IMG/VR virus record: IMGVR_UViG_3300040801_000485
Span: 1 to 23,363 of that record
Strand: one strand, 5' to 3'
From: a virus
Length of the DNA stretch: 23,363 bases
This document shows positions 3,703 through 15,924 of this stretch, piece after piece. The notes below the pieces were generated by a model. The model did no database searches and was not told where the DNA came from. It was given only the letters and a program-made list of their open reading frames with translations. Each line of letters starts with the position of its first letter. Within the stretch, counting starts at the first letter, position 1. The position numbers were made by a program, and so were the translations under genes.

Positions 3703-4374
3703 ATGAATACAGGACACCAACAAAGCATATTTGATCTTCCTCAACTGGAGAAACCGCGATTCTCGGCTGTTCATGTTGAGCGCGTGGTTATACGTGTTTT
3801 GAATCTCTATGCCGGGATTGGTGGCAACCGGAAACTATGGGAAAATGTTGATGTAACTGCTGTGGAGTTTGACCCAGGTATTGCAGAAATATATCAAGAC
3901 CACTTCCCAAAAGATACGGTGATTGTGGGGGATGCTCACCAATACTTACTTGAACATTACAAAGAGTATGACTTCATTTGGGCAAGCCCACCATGCCCGA
4001 CTCATAGCAGGATAAGAGAGATGGGCGTGAAAAAGGGGCTTTACCCTGCTTTATATCCAGATATTAAGCTATGGCAAGAGGTAACGCTGTTGAAGCACTT
4101 TGCTACTTGTAAGTGGGTGGTTGAGAACGTCAAGCCGTATTATCAGCCGATAGTTGCCCCAACATTTGAGCTTGATAGGCATTGTTTTTGGTCAAACTTC
4201 TATGTACCTGGCAGCACATTTAAAGGTCGTGGTGTAGATCACAAACAGATTAATGGCGGAAACCACAATATATATGGATTTGATATATCTGGCTACAAAA
4301 TACCAGACAAGAGAAGACTGCTCAGAAATATGGTTTCGCCTGAAGTGGGGGCGCATATTCTTGAGTACGTATAA
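3703..4374 (+). CDS. dcm: Small C5 cytosine DNA methyltransferase
   Basis: The protein has 223 residues from ATG 3703 (a TTG at 3694 is an in-frame alternative). It carries motif I (VLNLYAGIGGNRKLW, near residue 31) for SAM binding, motif IV ASPPCPTHSR with the catalytic Cys in PPC near residue 99, and motif VI ENV near 144. The target-recognition region is very short, as in the compact phage Dcm-like family. It probably methylates phage DNA at cytosines to evade host restriction; the target site is unknown. The extreme N terminus has QQSIFDLPQ, which fits a sliding-clamp-binding motif. The TAA stop is part of the attC-like site that follows, and flanking repeats suggest the gene is an accessory insertion. 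Confidence 0.9.
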   Translation: MNTGHQQSIFDLPQLEKPRFSAVHVERVVIRVLNLYAGIGGNRKLWENVDVTAVEFDPGIAEIYQDHFPKDTVIVGDAHQYLLEHYKEYDFIWASPPCPTHSRIREMGVKKGLYPALYPDIKLWQEVTLLKHFATCKWVVENVKPYYQPIVAPTFELDRHCFWSNFYVPGSTFKGRGVDHKQINGGNHNIYGFDISGYKIPDKRRLLRNMVSPEVGAHILEYV

Positions 4375-4456
4375 CGTTTAAATTCAGCGGCCAGCAACCG
4401 CTGTAAACTAATATCGACGAGGTTATTCTGGTCCGCTGGAATGCCTTGTGTTATGT
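4369..4456 (-). repeat. Integron attC-like recombination site (minus orientation)
   Basis: The outer boxes are GTATAAC (4369-4375) and GTTATGT (4450-4456), variants of RYYYAAC and GTTRRRY. Unpaired spacers follow (4376-4382, 4442-4449). The inner arms TTCAGCGGCCAG (4383-4394) and CTGGTCCGCTGGAA (4428-4441) pair over 12 bp and leave two extra bases on one side only: T4432, then six bases later G4439. Two extrahelical bases, T then G, on the loop-to-3' arm of the recombining strand are the hallmark of integron attC sites and give the polarity. Here the + strand would be the recombining strand, so the site points along the minus strand, opposite to the genes beside it. AACC/GGTT extends the stem in the 33-base apical part. 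Confidence 0.75.
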
Positions 4457-4464
4457 GAGGATTT

Positions 4465-4641
4465 ATGGAGCTATTAAACAGGGAATACAATGGAGAAGAA
4501 CTGTGCGACATTGACAGGGATGTGAGTGAGTGTTTTGACCACCATTTCAACCCGGATGTTTTGAAAATACCAGTAATTGACGGTGGTTTTCCAAGGGGTA
4601 AATTTAGAGTTGTTGTAACTTGGGAAGATGAAAACACATAA
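4465..4641 (+). CDS. 58-aa hypothetical protein
   Basis: A short frame from ATG 4465 to TAA 4639-4641 with a GAGG Shine-Dalgarno 4 bases upstream, lying exactly between the attC-like site and copy 2 of the 36-bp repeat. The product is acidic and soluble, with VLKIPVIDGG and a C-terminal KFRVVVTWED strand, consistent with a small beta-containing fold. I know no family for it. Its size and bracketing by recombination-type sequences resemble an integron gene cassette, although the reading direction is opposite to the attC polarity. The stop codon is contributed by the repeat. Confidence 0.6.
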   Translation: MELLNREYNGEELCDIDRDVSECFDHHFNPDVLKIPVIDGGFPRGKFRVVVTWEDENT

Positions 4642-4673
4642 CCATTGATTAACAGGTCTGCTTGCCCTGATAA
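4638..4673 (+). repeat. 36-bp gene-end repeat, copy 2
   Basis: Same 36-bp element as at 108-143, differing at three positions. It again includes the TAA stop of the gene to its left and the CAGG/CCTG mini-hairpin. Together with ACATAAC at 4636-4642 it forms the right boundary of the interval that starts at the attC-like site. Confidence 0.75.
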
Positions 4674-4743
4674 TAGATCATAAATAAACCATCTTGACCA
4701 AAAATGAAAAAGGAAATATAATGGAAAAAAATAGACAAAAAAT

Positions 4744-5298
4744 ATGGCCAAAAACGAGAAAGGAAAATTTAACGATCTTGGCGACCTGGAAGATATACCA
4801 CAGGACAAAGAGATAAAAAACGGCTTTTGGAAACTAAAAACAAAAGTTGGCAGGAAACGTCTGTTCAATTCACCCCAAACACTCTGGAAAGCCTGTTGTG
4901 AATATTTCGAGGCTGTAGAACAAAACCCATTATATGCCGGTGAACTGGTAAAATATCAAGGAACATCAAGGCTTGAAGCAGTACCACACATGAGAGCAAT
5001 GTCGATAGGCGCTCTTTGTGTATTCCTGGGAATAAGCCTTAGAACATGGTATGAGTATGCAGATAGGGAAGAATTTTCGCATATCACTACGCAAGTTACC
5101 CAAATAATCTACAATCAAAAGTTTGAAGGAGCGTCAGCAGAACTCCTCAATGCCAATATTATAGCCCGTGACTTAGGACTGATAGAAAAGTCAGATGTAA
5201 CGTCAAAGGGAAAATCCATAGGCAACGTTAACCAGACGGTAATCGTACTCCCAGCAAAAGAAAGCTTGGACGATGACGGCCAATGTCCCGCCAAATAG
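4744..5298 (+). CDS. terS: Terminase small subunit
   Basis: TerS recognises phage DNA and feeds it to the TerL motor. The 184-residue protein has a charged N terminus, a central helical DNA-binding region including MSIGALCVFLGISLRTWYEYA (about residues 84-104, an HTH-like arrangement), then LLNANIIARDLGLIEKSD and a short disordered tail. This order matches the gp3-type packaging proteins (P22 gp3-like family). The gene overlaps terL by 26 bases. The start at ATG 4744 lacks a clear Shine-Dalgarno. An A-rich partial duplicate of its first codons lies 50 bases upstream (4694-4723). Confidence 0.85.
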   Translation: MAKNEKGKFNDLGDLEDIPQDKEIKNGFWKLKTKVGRKRLFNSPQTLWKACCEYFEAVEQNPLYAGELVKYQGTSRLEAVPHMRAMSIGALCVFLGISLRTWYEYADREEFSHITTQVTQIIYNQKFEGASAELLNANIIARDLGLIEKSDVTSKGKSIGNVNQTVIVLPAKESLDDDGQCPAK

Positions 5299-7609
5299 CA
5301 CAGTAATTAAACCGCAACCAGGACCGCAGACTAGGTTCTTGACGTGCGGAGCTGATGTTATTTTCTACGGTGGATCTGCTGGCGGCGGTAAAACATACGC
5401 CTTACTTCTTGACCCTCTCTACCATATAAACAATCGCCGGTTCGGATCGGTAATATTCCGCAGGACTACAAAACAGATTACGTCTGAGGGTGGTCTGTGG
5501 GATACTGCTATGGAATTATATAATCCCATCGGTGGCAATCCGATACAGAACCCCCACTCCCATTTTAATTTTCCATCAGGTGCAAAGATCAGTTTCCATC
5601 ACATGGAGCACGAGAAAAACCGCTATGACTGGCAGGGGTCACAGATACCGCACATATGCTGTAAAGTTGATACAAATATTGTAATGGCTGATGGAAAACT
5701 AAAGCAAGCTGGAAAACTAGTTAAAGGTGATAAATTAAAAACATTAAACGGTGAGGGAACTGTTACCTTCATTGGGTCCCCACGCAAGGCTGAGTGTGTA
5801 TCTTGTATAGACGGTAAAGGTAATGAGCAGATACAAACAAAAGACCACAAGATACTTACTAGGAGTGGCTGGGTTTCTTACGACGATATTGTTTGTGAAC
5901 CTCACCAACACCACGATATGGAGCGACCCAGTCAACACCATTCCTCTTGCATATCCTCATTATTGTTCTATAAGAAACTCCTGTCTCTTCCACAGTATCT
6001 CTTACGCTCTTTTTATCGTTTTTTGCATATTTTAAGATTTTGGAAATTACAGCAGGATCATCAACCTTTGTCGGTAATTTCCTCTTATATGGGGCAACAA
6101 GGTCTGGGTATCTGTTTCGAATCGTCTGTGTGTGACACTTTAGCTCTCTTGCCGCGTGCTTTAGGCCGCCACTTGCGAGAGCTTCTGAAACCTTTTTTCT
6201 TGTTATCGGAAGGTTGTTCTTTTTTCTTTGTTCAGAGCGGTGCAGCCGCAAATGGTCTCCTCGTGTCATCACAACAAGATTATCCAAAGAATTATTCATC
6301 TTGTCTCCGTCCTTATGGTGAACCAACTGTTTACGATTCAAATAATAACCAAGGTCACGTTCTACAACTAAACGGTGTTGTAATACAAAACCGAATTGAT
6401 TCGCTCTCTTGTGAGACGGGCACAATTCATAAAGATATCCATTATGGATTGCAGTATGAGCACCCGTATAAACATGAAGCACAGATTGCGGAAGAAGGTG
6501 TTTGTTTTTCATCTGTTACAATGTCTCCTTGTGGAATACATGATGTTATTGATATTACAGTTTCACCTCAATGTCATTATATAACACAATCTGGAATAAT
6601 AAACAAGAACTGTTTCGACGAAATTACCCACTTCACATGGAAGCAATTTAACTATATGCTGTCCAGGCTACGTTCTGGTTCTGGAGTAAAGGGAACAGTC
6701 AAAGCAACGTGCAATCCTGATCCTGACCACTGGATACGCTCATGGATTGATTGGTGGATAGGGGAAGACGGACTTGCTATTCCTGAAAGAAGCGGAGTCA
6801 TCAGGTGGTTTATTGTCGAGGGTGATGAAATATTGTGGGGCGATACTGCAAAGGAATTGACAGAAAAGTATCCTCATGCAATTCCAAAGAGCTTTACTTT
6901 TATCCGTTCCAGTGTATTTGATAACAAGATCCTCCTTGAACAAGATCCAGGATATCTCGCAAATTTACATGCTTTGACAAGAGTTGAGAAAGCAAGGCTA
7001 CTTGAAGGAAATTGGAACATACGGGCTACGGCAGGAAGTTACTTCAAGCGAGGTGAATTTGAAATAGTTGATTCTGTCCCTGCTAATACTAATAGAGTAA
7101 GAGCATGGGATTTGGCAGCAACAAAAAGGAAAGAGACAGCCCAGGACAAGGAAAGAAAGTCAGATGATCCTGATTGGACTGCGGGATGCTTGATGAGCGA
7201 ACACAATGGGATTTACTATATTGAGGATATACAGAGATTCAGGGAAGAGGCTCCGAAGGTAGAAGGGATGATAAAGAATATAGCTTCTTCTGATCCCAGA
7301 TATACCAAAGTACGCCTGCCACAAGATCCAGGGCAAGCTGGAAAGGCACAAGCAAAGTCCTACATCCAGGCTCTTGCCGGTTATGATGTAGTCACCTATC
7401 CAGTAACGGGAGACAAAGAACATCGGGCAACACCTCTTGCGGCTCAAGTACAGGCAGGGAACGTCAAGTTAGTAAAAGGAAAGTGGAATGAAGCATTTCT
7501 AATTGAACTGGAAAACTTCCCGGACGGAATACACGATGACCAAGTAGATGCTGCAAGTGATGCCTTTGACGAGTTGACTAATAAAAAACGAATAGCAGGT
7601 ACTTGGTAA
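5273..7609 (+). CDS. terL: Terminase large subunit interrupted by an intein
   Basis: The precursor has 778 residues. Removing the intein (residues 129-446) leaves 460, a normal TerL length. Walker A is GGSAGGGKT at residues 33-41. The extein junction rebuilds IPHI-CFDEITHF, with the Walker B acidic pair at Asp449-Glu450. A coupling-motif-like KATCNPDP follows near 478-484. The C-terminal RNase H-like nuclease shows Asp612 (AWDLA), Asp685 (LPQDPG) and Asp755/756 (GIHDDQVDA). TerL hydrolyses ATP to pump DNA into the prohead and cuts the concatemer. Because the intein sits directly before Walker B, the ATPase should be inactive until splicing occurs. Frame overlap with terS suggests coupling. 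Confidence 0.95.
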   Translation: MTANVPPNSTVIKPQPGPQTRFLTCGADVIFYGGSAGGGKTYALLLDPLYHINNRRFGSVIFRRTTKQITSEGGLWDTAMELYNPIGGNPIQNPHSHFNFPSGAKISFHHMEHEKNRYDWQGSQIPHICCKVDTNIVMADGKLKQAGKLVKGDKLKTLNGEGTVTFIGSPRKAECVSCIDGKGNEQIQTKDHKILTRSGWVSYDDIVCEPHQHHDMERPSQHHSSCISSLLFYKKLLSLPQYLLRSFYRFLHILRFWKLQQDHQPLSVISSYMGQQGLGICFESSVCDTLALLPRALGRHLRELLKPFFLLSEGCSFFFVQSGAAANGLLVSSQQDYPKNYSSCLRPYGEPTVYDSNNNQGHVLQLNGVVIQNRIDSLSCETGTIHKDIHYGLQYEHPYKHEAQIAEEGVCFSSVTMSPCGIHDVIDITVSPQCHYITQSGIINKNCFDEITHFTWKQFNYMLSRLRSGSGVKGTVKATCNPDPDHWIRSWIDWWIGEDGLAIPERSGVIRWFIVEGDEILWGDTAKELTEKYPHAIPKSFTFIRSSVFDNKILLEQDPGYLANLHALTRVEKARLLEGNWNIRATAGSYFKRGEFEIVDSVPANTNRVRAWDLAATKRKETAQDKERKSDDPDWTAGCLMSEHNGIYYIEDIQRFREEAPKVEGMIKNIASSDPRYTKVRLPQDPGQAGKAQAKSYIQALAGYDVVTYPVTGDKEHRATPLAAQVQAGNVKLVKGKWNEAFLIELENFPDGIHDDQVDAASDAFDELTNKKRIAGTW
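5859..6512 (-). CDS. HNH homing endonuclease encoded antisense within the TerL intein
   Basis: The 217-residue product has an HNH_3-type core: LQHRLVVERDLG (residues 44-55), LVHHKDGDKMNN (63-74), LDNLVVMTRGDHLRLH (76-91). His65, His66, Asp68, Asn74, Asn78, His87 and His91 are in the expected places. Two HTH-like segments follow, near residues 106-137 (LKHAARELKCHTQTI) and 165-192 (TVEETGVSYRTIMRICKRNG), probably for target recognition; the tail is basic. Start ATG 6512 has AAGGAG 12 bases upstream on the minus strand (6525-6530). A homing enzyme cutting intein-less terL alleles is the natural role. It is the only minus-strand gene in the window and lies wholly inside the intein, opposite to its reading direction. 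Confidence 0.9.
   Translation of the reverse strand: MKNKHLLPQSVLHVYTGAHTAIHNGYLYELCPSHKRANQFGFVLQHRLVVERDLGYYLNRKQLVHHKDGDKMNNSLDNLVVMTRGDHLRLHRSEQRKKNNLPITRKKVSEALASGGLKHAARELKCHTQTIRNRYPDLVAPYKRKLPTKVDDPAVISKILKYAKNDKKSVRDTVEETGVSYRTIMRICKRNGVDWVAPYRGVGEVHKQYRRKKPSHS
6525..6530 (-). promoter_or_regulatory. Ribosome binding site of the antisense endonuclease gene
   Basis: On the minus strand AAGGAG lies 12 bases before ATG 6512. It is encoded within the codons for the C-terminal splicing segment of the intein. The spacer is slightly long but the match to the 16S tail is strong. Confidence 0.6.
6576..6581 (-). promoter_or_regulatory. Candidate -10 box for the antisense endonuclease gene
   Basis: The minus strand reads TGTTATATAATG here, containing a perfect TATAAT and also an overlapping extended -10 reading (TGT-TATATA). 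The nearest -35-like hexamer (TTGTTT, 19-base spacer) is poor. A transcript from here would have a leader of roughly 55-60 bases before ATG 6512. The DNA also encodes the block F residues H-Y-I-T, so the match could be coincidental. Confidence 0.35.
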
Positions 7610-7624
7610 TTAAAGAGGCAGCAA

Positions 7625-9082
7625 ATGAAACGTAAAGATGGAAATAGATCAAAAGTGCTGAATGAACAACTGGAATTGAACAGGTCAATTTTGAATAGGA
7701 TATTTGCCAATTCCAGCAGCGTTCTTGCTAGCAGAATGTCTTATGGTAATACTCAGACGTTTGACGGATTGCGGGATGTGTATACATCTCTTGGCTATCC
7801 AGCTGTTGATAAGATCAGTTATAATGATTTTTACGCCAAGTATAAACGGCAAGATGTTGCAGCTACTATAATTGACAAGCCAGTATTTGGAGCATGGAAG
7901 AGAACACCAATTATAAAGACGAAAGGAGAGGACATAGAAGATGATCCTTTTCGGACTGAGTGGGAATTACTTGCTGATAGGTTCAAGCTATTTAGTCTAT
8001 TCCAGCGGGTGGATAAGTTGGCTGGAATAGGGAGATATGCGATATTGTATATGGGGGTACAGGATGGAAGCAATAGACCTTTCGAGCCTTTGAATAATTC
8101 TGGAAAGCTTTTATACATCCAGCCATATAGTGAAGGAAACGCCCCGATAAAAACTGCTGTTTCTGATCCGATGCACGAACGCTTCAGTCTCCCGGACAAG
8201 TATAGTTTGAGAAGTGTACAAGTAGTAGCAGGGAATATTGATACAAAGGCGTACAACGAAATAGATGTTGATAGTTCCCGTATTATTCACATTGCTGACA
8301 ATCTTCTGGAAAATAATGTTTATGGAATGTCGAGGCTGGAGAAAGTATACAACCGCCTACTCAATCTTGAATTGATTGTCGGTGGTAGTGCCGAAATGTT
8401 CTGGCAAGGGGCTTTCCCTGGGCTGGCTTTCACAACAAGGGACGATTACAACCTGACTGAACAGACAAGTGCTGATTTAACAGAACAAATCAAGGCATAT
8501 GTCCACCAGTTGGAAAGATACATGAAACTTCAAGGAATCGACGTACAATCTTTGAGTAATACGATTGCTGATCCCGGAAGCCATGTGGATGTGCAATTGA
8601 CAATGCTGAGTATTGCAACTGGAATTCCTAAGCGAATATTTCAAGGATCAGAGCGCGGAGAGCTTGCGAGCAGTCAGGACACAAAAGCATGGAACGAGTT
8701 TTGTGACAACAGAAGAAGAAGTTTTTGTGAACCAAGCATTATAATTCCTGTTGTAGATAAGTTGATTGAGATCGGAGAACTTCCCGAGCCTGCTGGAGGA
8801 GAGTACGAAATTGAATGGCCTGACCTTGAAACAGCAAGCGATAAGGACAAAGCAGATATAGGGAAAGTAAGAAGTGAGGCAATTCGCGGATATGCTCAAA
8901 CACCAGATGCTCAATTGATTGTTCCTCCAAAGTCATTCTTGCAAGACATTATGGAACTTGAGCCGGACAAGGTAGAGCGGATCATGTCGGAAATGGAAGA
9001 TATGATGACAGATATGTTTCGGATGGAAGAGACTGGAGACATAGAAGCCCAGGAAGAAAGGGAAGAGGACACTGAAGAGTAA
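7625..9082 (+). CDS. Portal protein (DUF1073-like)
   Basis: The portal forms the dodecameric ring through which DNA enters the head. The 485-residue protein has the layout of DUF1073-type portals: an N-terminal arm with YNDFYAKYKRQDVAATIIDKPV near residues 65-86, a segment KLAGIGRYAILYMGVQDG near 131-148, HIADNLLENNVYGMSRLEKVYNRL in the central part, then IFQGSERGELASSQDTKAW and an acidic C-terminal tail rich in Glu, Asp and Met. Position directly after terL and before the Mu F-like gene agrees. A good Shine-Dalgarno (AGAGG, 6-base spacer) supports the start. The stop overlaps the next ATG by 1 base (TAATG). Confidence 0.85.
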   Translation: MKRKDGNRSKVLNEQLELNRSILNRIFANSSSVLASRMSYGNTQTFDGLRDVYTSLGYPAVDKISYNDFYAKYKRQDVAATIIDKPVFGAWKRTPIIKTKGEDIEDDPFRTEWELLADRFKLFSLFQRVDKLAGIGRYAILYMGVQDGSNRPFEPLNNSGKLLYIQPYSEGNAPIKTAVSDPMHERFSLPDKYSLRSVQVVAGNIDTKAYNEIDVDSSRIIHIADNLLENNVYGMSRLEKVYNRLLNLELIVGGSAEMFWQGAFPGLAFTTRDDYNLTEQTSADLTEQIKAYVHQLERYMKLQGIDVQSLSNTIADPGSHVDVQLTMLSIATGIPKRIFQGSERGELASSQDTKAWNEFCDNRRRSFCEPSIIIPVVDKLIEIGELPEPAGGEYEIEWPDLETASDKDKADIGKVRSEAIRGYAQTPDAQLIVPPKSFLQDIMELEPDKVERIMSEMEDMMTDMFRMEETGDIEAQEEREEDTEE

Positions 9083-14129: not shown

Positions 14130-14668
14130 AACTTCACTCCAACTACAAGACTCACAATATCTACAAACATTTTGATATCTATAAGAGCGACTTTGCTTGG
14201 ATAGATGGAAATGTAGAAGTTGGGGAAGGAACAAGGATATATCACTTTACTGTAATTCGAGAAAATGTAAAGATTGGTAAAAACTCTATCATTGGTCATA
14301 ACGTGGTTGTTGAAAGAGACACTGTAATTGGAGATAGAACAACAATACAAAGTCAATGCCACATTACTGCTGAAGCTGTTATCGGAAATGATTGTTTCTT
14401 TGGTCCTGGAGTAGTAACCATGAATGAAAGAAACATAGCAAATAATGGAAGAGCAATACCTAAAATTGAAGTGTTGAGAATTGGAAACGGGGTCAGGATT
14501 GGAGCAGGTGCCATTATAGCTCCAGGAATCCAGATAGGAGACAATGCTTTTATCCATGCGGCAAGCTTTGTCACGAAATCTGTTGGGGAAGGGGAAATAT
14601 GGGGCAACCTGCGAGGGGAGTCACGAGCGTCACGTCTAGGCATGGTTCCTATGGAGGAACGGCTGTGA
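14126..14668 (+). CDS. Left-handed beta-helix (hexapeptide repeat) acyltransferase
   Basis: ATG 14126 overlaps the previous stop (ATGA) and has GAGG 7 bases upstream, giving 180 residues; a longer frame from 14036 is an extension into the upstream gene. Hexapeptide repeats of the [LIV]-G-x4 type run from about residue 30 to 145 (VKIGKNSIIGHNVVV, DTVIGDRTTI, AVIGNDCFFG, IGNGVRIGAGAIIAPGIQIGDNAFI). This is the trimeric beta-helix of acetyl/acyltransferases that use acetyl-CoA, like the WbpD/WlbB sugar N-acetyltransferases. The acceptor is probably a sugar; which one is not shown. It belongs to the four-gene glycan block. Confidence 0.85.
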   Translation: MKLHSNYKTHNIYKHFDIYKSDFAWIDGNVEVGEGTRIYHFTVIRENVKIGKNSIIGHNVVVERDTVIGDRTTIQSQCHITAEAVIGNDCFFGPGVVTMNERNIANNGRAIPKIEVLRIGNGVRIGAGAIIAPGIQIGDNAFIHAASFVTKSVGEGEIWGNLRGESRASRLGMVPMEERL

Positions 14669-15924
14669 TAGTCCCTGCATTCGCTTGCGTATTACGCTCA
14701 GGAGGGGATTATAAGCCTGAGCACGTAAATGCTTTGGCCCAACAAGTGGCTGAACATACTTCTGTCCCTCATGAATTCGTTTGTTATTCTGACATTCGAG
14801 TTCCTGGGATACAAACTATTCCACTTGAAAAGGAATATCCTGGATGGTGGAGTGTTCCTGAAGTATTCCGTCAGAAAGGCCCAACAGTAATAACCGGGAT
14901 AGATACAGTTATTACTGGGAGTTTTGATCCGCTCTTCAAATTGGCTGTAGAATCGACGGAAAAAGACTTTTGGATGATCAGGGCTTTCAATCCCAAAAAC
15001 CAGTATGCGAGCGGGATAATGGCGTACAATGGGGATTGGTCAGGGATTTGGGATTCATTTGAATATCCAAGGGACTCAAAGCCAGGAGGGGAACAGGATT
15101 ATACAATTTCATATTTGAAGGGGAAGGGGATTACTCCAAGAATTCTTCAAAACAAAATATCAGGAATATACAGCTATAAAAAGCATTGTAGAAAGGGGAT
15201 TCCAGCAGATTGCCGAATAATGCTTTTTCACGGGAAGCCTAGACCATTTGAGGTTCCTGAGATATGGAGCAATTTAGTAATTTCGGATGAATGTTGTTAT
15301 TCTCCCATTCCGGAACTTTGGCCGGATTCTACTGTTTATATTCTTGGAGGTGGTCCGAGTTTGTTGGATTTGGATTTGTCTTTGATAGAAAAGAAAAGAG
15401 TATTGGGAGTAAATCAAGCTTACAAACTCGGAGATTGGGTAGAGGTTTGTTATTCAGGGGATAGACGTTGGTATCATTGGAATCAAAGAAAGATCAGAAG
15501 ATATAAAGGATTGATGATTACCAGTTATCCAAACTTCATACCAACAAAAAAAGGAAAACTGGTTTTAAATGTTGGAAGGATTTCTAAACATGGAATAAGT
15601 GGAAAGAAAAATACTGCTATTTGCTGGAATGGAAATTCTGGAGCATCTGCTGTAAATGTCGCTTATTGGTTAGGAGCCAGAAGAATCGTTCTTTGTGGTT
15701 TCGATATGAAGAGGCAGGGTCAGAAATTCAATTGGCATACAGATTATCCAAAACTCCCTCCGAAGAAACAGAATGGGAGATTGACAAGTCCATACAGACA
15801 ATTTTTAGAATGTTGGGATTCTATAGCAAGGGATGCGAAGAAGTTGGGAATTGAAATACTGAATGCCACTCCTGCTGGAAATTTAAACCACTTTCCAAGA
15901 GTAAAACTTGAGGATACGTTATGA
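14665..15924 (+). CDS. Two-domain protein: glycosyltransferase-like plus MptE/DUF115-like domain
   Basis: I choose GTG 14665, overlapping the previous stop (GTGA) and preceded by GGAGG with a 7-base spacer; the frame from 14599 would overlap the acyltransferase by 70 bases. The product is 419 residues. The N-terminal domain (about 1-205) begins FACVLRSGGDYKPEHVNALAQQV and includes TGIDTVITGSFDPLF near 77-91 and MLFHGKPRP near 186-194, the layout of phage-encoded glycosyltransferase-like (GT-A) proteins. The C-terminal domain (about 213-419) begins PELWPDSTVYILGGGPSLLD and repeats the fold of the 13482-14129 product, including ICWNGNSGASAVNVAYWLGARRIVLCGFD. The fusion suggests that the two activities work on the same sugar. 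Confidence 0.78.
   Translation: MIVPAFACVLRSGGDYKPEHVNALAQQVAEHTSVPHEFVCYSDIRVPGIQTIPLEKEYPGWWSVPEVFRQKGPTVITGIDTVITGSFDPLFKLAVESTEKDFWMIRAFNPKNQYASGIMAYNGDWSGIWDSFEYPRDSKPGGEQDYTISYLKGKGITPRILQNKISGIYSYKKHCRKGIPADCRIMLFHGKPRPFEVPEIWSNLVISDECCYSPIPELWPDSTVYILGGGPSLLDLDLSLIEKKRVLGVNQAYKLGDWVEVCYSGDRRWYHWNQRKIRRYKGLMITSYPNFIPTKKGKLVLNVGRISKHGISGKKNTAICWNGNSGASAVNVAYWLGARRIVLCGFDMKRQGQKFNWHTDYPKLPPKKQNGRLTSPYRQFLECWDSIARDAKKLGIEILNATPAGNLNHFPRVKLEDTL

Follow-up and report, generated by a model that had tools for sequence, protein, structure and literature searches.

Can an intein be paired with a homing endonuclease that is encoded on the opposite strand of its own DNA? This question is raised by the terminase large subunit gene (terL; 5273-7609, + strand, 778 codons) in a 23,363-bp stretch of viral DNA, IMG/VR virus record IMGVR_UViG_3300040801_000485, which was analysed whole and is called the window below. 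An in-frame insert of 954 nt (5657-6610, + strand; 318 codons, C1 to N318) lies directly before the FDE of the Walker B motif, and a long open reading frame (ORF) on the minus strand (5859-6512, starting with the ATG at 6512 and encoding 217 aa before its stop) lies within the insert. The first-pass annotation, made from the letters of the window alone, described them as an intein and its HNH endonuclease, and the terL ORF, the limits of both elements and the 460 aa left after excision were found exactly as described. We consider it very probable that the insert is a functional intein and that its homing endonuclease is made as a protein of its own from the antisense strand. With less assurance, we also regard it as likely that this intein represents a widespread phage family made of two overlapping, opposite genes, one for a cis-splicing protein and one for an independently expressed antisense endonuclease, with both frames under selection (for an open frame and for protein function, respectively), and that this stable lifestyle was previously undescribed.

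The host protein was readily assigned: TerL matched PHROG 979 (E 1.4e-165) across the interruption, and Terminase_6N and Terminase_6C were matched in profile searches. Intein-less TerL homologues align uninterrupted over the site (...QGSQIPHI-CFDEITHF), and removal of the insert restores an intact conserved Walker B in the alignment with these empty TerLs. The insert starts with Cys (CCKVDT), contains QTKDHKIL as block B and VIDITVSPQCHYI as block F, and ends in NKN before Cys+1. The Cys+1 codon (6611-6613) was read directly in the sequence after N318, and it opens the C-terminal extein (6611-7609, + strand), which continues with FDE. The N-terminal Cys, the block B and block F His, the terminal Asn with Cys+1, the Hint fold and the in-frame insertion are those of a class 1 intein.

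The Hint profiles recommended as a check in the first-pass annotation gave a divided result. The window insert alone had no match in Pfam or PHROGs and only sub-threshold NCBIfam intein matches; the support came from its relatives and from structure. Hom_end_hint matched 22 of the 27 members of the family and intein_Cterm matched 9, and the family profile retrieved the PI-SceI (2e-5) and gp41-1 (2.2e-5) inteins from the PDB. In the AlphaFold model, residues 1-80 and 263-318 were confident and the middle was poor, and the model superimposed on gp41-1 with a Z score of 18.7 and a root-mean-square deviation of 1.9 over 117 residues. The N-terminal Hint part (residues 1-80; 5657-5896, + strand) carries blocks A and B with invariant C1 and H64, at a predicted local distance difference test score (pLDDT) of 93-98; the C-terminal part (residues 263-318; 6443-6610, + strand) carries an HPY motif, blocks F and G, H307 and N318, at 79-98. 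Between them, the sense reading of the overlap (approximately residues 84-261; 5906-6439, + strand) is open and of low structural confidence, with block means mostly of 36-57 and one helical stretch up to 75. Cys1, His64, His307 and Asn318 were invariant across the 27 sense-frame intein members, an invariance partly built into the search patterns, which already required the terminal N and Cys+1 and, in the second pattern, the block F His. By family profile and predicted fold the insert is identified as a Hint intein, and its precursor would be expected to splice.

The minus-strand protein was recognised by profile as an HNH nuclease, as had been proposed. Its HNH_3 domain (residues 45-88; 6249-6380, - strand) scored above the cut-off (E 9.5e-10), with H46, H65, H66, N74, N78, H87 and likewise H91 invariant in the antisense family. 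The helical, DNA-binding part (residues ~104-190; 5943-6203, - strand) comprises two helix-turn-helix-like units seen as helices in the model; HTH_28 was matched at 6e-6, and the best Foldseek match of this part was the bipartite DNA-binding domain of Tc3 transposase, a weak one (E 0.011). Among the 24 antisense family proteins, HNH_3 was matched in all, HTH_28 in 16 and NUMOD1 in 6. In the model of the protein (pLDDT 86), the HNH domain had its best, though modest, match in I-HmuI (Z 7.5 over 83 residues, 25% identity), followed by I-PpoI (Z 5.3). I-HmuI, a phage HNH homing endonuclease, is similarly modular, with HNH and DNA-binding parts; unlike the nuclease here, it is intron-encoded on the sense strand. 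Longer antisense nucleases (~300 aa) were observed in L123 (817-1722, minus) and L132 (1583-2440, plus), in which the helical DNA-binding unit seems to be repeated additional times and the sense intein loop is correspondingly longer.

A Shine-Dalgarno-like AAGGAG (6525-6530, - strand) stands 12 nt upstream of the antisense ATG. Across the family, a Shine-Dalgarno-like core at strict spacing, just outside which the AAGGAG of the window falls, preceded 12 of 24 antisense ATGs versus 9% of the remaining ATGs on the minus strand of these inteins (P ~4e-7, a value that is only indicative because the members are related). The nuclease is probably expressed from the minus strand, and it may well cleave its target and drive homing.

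The first-pass annotation had suggested that TerL homologues be searched for the same insertion, and it recurs widely. The intein at the same TerL site, with an antisense HNH ORF always in the same register, was found in 34 further IMG/VR records, and the resulting 35 HNH proteins formed 30 clusters at 90% identity. The family was collected by a degenerate DNA scan (intein end plus NCFDE), by HNH-based scans and by a second pattern; because the full set of HNH proteins was too diverse to scan with, two closer subsets were used. IMG/VR scans with the window HNH alone or the window insert alone returned no relatives, and the GTDB scan returned only an archaeal HNH gene (L129) outside any TerL. 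Isolate-phage matches were mostly to the HNH domain, and a few extended over as much as 86% with <30% identity; among the matches listed, of which one was opened, none was annotated as lying within a terminase. No sense-frame nuclease was present in the inteins read, by reading and by a Pfam scan of the 27 members, although, with search patterns biased towards a single Hint type with Cys+1, this sample gives no unbiased frequency of sense-nuclease inteins for the site.

The site was empty in ~70 related TerLs, and six records (L092, L101/L107, L104, L153/L160; about four distinct) carried mini-inteins of 147-151 aa without HNH. In the L153/L160 mini-intein, the antisense strand in the HNH register reads CKGVHTTTYG and then a stop, like the HNH N-terminus (RGGHTTTYGGYV in L154), and this stretch is possibly a relic of nuclease loss. 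Since the sense frame also constrains its bases, descent of the mini-inteins from HNH-bearing ones is only suggestive. A variant of the site was observed in L149 (4882-5838, minus), where the intein is followed by NCGFDE instead of NCFDE and the insertion precedes the Walker B acidic pair by one codon more than in the other members.

Which of the two frames is selected in the overlap can be read from their register, in which codon position 3 of the HNH gene lies opposite position 2 of the sense frame. Like the lack of a Hint match, a lack of conservation of the minus-strand ORF relative to the plus frame had been named by the first-pass annotation as a refutation, and at sequence level its reading withstood both; in the overlap the antisense frame was the conserved one, with the plus frame still open. 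Differences in the overlap at HNH positions 1, 2 and 3 were 0.37, 0.32 and 0.62 for pairs with at least 45% identity, and 0.25, 0.19 and 0.51 for the window versus L126. In the Hint parts outside the overlap, nearly all pairs varied most at position 3 of the sense codons. The window and L126 shared 70% identity in HNH and only 38% in the sense reading of the overlap; the closest pair, L093/L127, was an exception (84% and 85%). The peak of variation at HNH position 3, which is sense position 2, indicates that the nuclease is the selected product in the overlap, and the central segment of the intein is shaped by the antisense protein. The sense frame is nevertheless maintained. When synonymous codons were permuted within each HNH gene, a mean of 5-15 sense stops arose in the overlap, whereas all 25 members examined had none. 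This points to active maintenance of an open sense frame, which an intein in an essential gene requires. Some bases serve both products: at 6461-6469 the sense HPY of the Hint domain is the complement of the YTG(A/G) motif of the nuclease, and HPY persists as PY in the mini-inteins.

We propose the following explanation. Translation of the plus strand would yield a TerL precursor, from which the Hint domain (residues 1-80 plus 263-318) would excise itself and restore Walker B. The segment of ~180 residues between the Hint halves, the place of the endonuclease domain in other inteins, would be no more than the sense reading of the antisense gene and would form a loose loop. The HNH endonuclease with its helix-turn-helix part would be produced from a second message, read from the minus strand, that has a start codon of its own and in many members a Shine-Dalgarno-like site. 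This enzyme would most likely cut intein-less terL near Walker B, and repair would copy the intein in. The anatomy, its conservation, the fixed register, the selection on the antisense frame and the avoidance of sense stops are established by comparison at the sequence level, and the proposal is built on them.

Four other explanations were weighed. The antisense HNH protein may be made, but for DNA packaging or another phage function rather than for homing. Its gene sits inside terL, HNH proteins often accompany terminases, and they are known as packaging partners (Kala 2014, as cited in PMC12613952). A packaging role should persist without the intein, whereas HNH is tied to the intein and its insertion site and is absent from the mini-inteins and the ~70 empty TerLs; it also carries helix-turn-helix DNA-binding units like those of homing enzymes. 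We consider this explanation improbable. Slightly less probable still is that the Hint part or the nuclease is decaying, leaving a relic that splices and no longer homes. Mini-inteins without HNH do exist, and activity is not readable from the sequence of a single window; set against this, the catalytic residues were invariant in 24 HNH proteins, no internal stops occurred in 30 distinct members, and the codon-position signatures show continuing purifying selection. That the insert is an intron removed as RNA, with an antisense nuclease gene and an accidental intein reading, has a precedent in group I introns that carry a homing endonuclease gene in antisense (PMC2585584). This reading is very unlikely, as the Hint residues and fold are conserved, and it is weakened because an intron needs no open sense frame, yet stops are avoided in all members. 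A group I or II intron as such was rejected: positions 5200-7700 matched no Rfam family up to E 1. Finally, composition can yield long antisense ORFs, but a chance by-product of the sense frame is practically refuted: 5000 shuffles of the intein sense codons gave antisense ORFs of at most 176 codons and never one of the required 218, HNH_3 was found in all members, and selection acts on the antisense frame.

For the preferred reading, a working intein with a separate antisense endonuclease, movement can be judged from its nearest relatives. The nearest TerL found for the window is empty at the site (67% identity), and its nearest nuclease (69%) sits in a TerL of only 51% identity; this mismatch suggests movement between phages. 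Several points weigh against the preferred reading. Extein and HNH identities correlate (r 0.64), and much of the history is accordingly vertical. The penultimate His, a common though not universal class 1 trait, is absent, with Lys in the window intein and Lys, Gln, Arg or Ser in relatives. Approximately half of the members have no Shine-Dalgarno-like site, and the antisense promoter scan was uninformative, giving no convincing promoter. All family members come from metagenomic assemblies, and the basis throughout is sequence and prediction.

The arrangement can be placed among known systems. Fractured genes with split inteins, reportedly described in Dassa 2009, have a free-standing nuclease gene between the split-intein halves. 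They share with the present case a separate intein-associated nuclease gene, which here overlaps one continuous intein. Endonuclease-bearing inteins, including those in mycobacteriophage TerL (PMC5050341), have the same Hint domain, insertion in a TerL ATPase motif and linked homing endonuclease between the Hint halves, but their nuclease is part of the intein chain on the same strand, whereas the present nuclease is a protein of its own, encoded on the other strand. The ShiLan-type insertion in phage DNA methylases (PMC11855218) likewise stays open in the host frame and conceals an HNH nuclease in a different one; it has no detectable splicing domain, whereas the nuclease here is read in antisense and lies within a true Hint intein. 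In Porphyra rDNA, group I introns (PMC2585584) are also self-splicing elements with a nuclease gene on their other strand, but their splicing is at the RNA level and the second frame need not stay open, whereas in terL translation of the host frame runs through the overlap. The first-pass annotation knew of no intein with an antisense endonuclease, and this holds for the literature searched, in which none is described; a preprint (10.1101/2025.01.02.630785) and Gorbalenya 1998 lie outside the comparison, and priority is not settled.

Conventional-looking inteins were observed elsewhere in terminases. In L006 (1315-3873, +), from a phage related to that of the window, TerL has such an intein in the Walker A P-loop, with LAGLIDADG-like motifs recognised by eye. 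L150 (~3744-7473, minus) and L151 (~3714-7416, minus) apparently have two inteins in one TerL, a P-loop intein with sense LAGLIDADG-like motifs (by eye) and a Walker B intein with antisense HNH, and the two architectures stand in contrast within one gene.

The separation of the two products has several implications. On the preferred reading, splicing and mobility are uncoupled into two products that could be expressed at different times, and the intein tolerates ~180 residues dictated by the other strand. The locus offers a clean natural example of two antisense genes that have long overlapped and that carry opposite codon-position signatures. Such elements would be missed by annotation pipelines in which overlapping antisense ORFs are discarded, and similar ones may therefore hide in other genes.

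The gene order of the window is siphovirus-like, with helicase loader genes, a DNA methyltransferase, the terminase small subunit, TerL, the portal, head genes and the tape measure. Among the structural genes, 14599-15924 (+ strand) encodes a 441-aa protein with a glycosyltransferase match in its N-terminal part and an alpha-2,3-sialyltransferase-like match in its C-terminal part.
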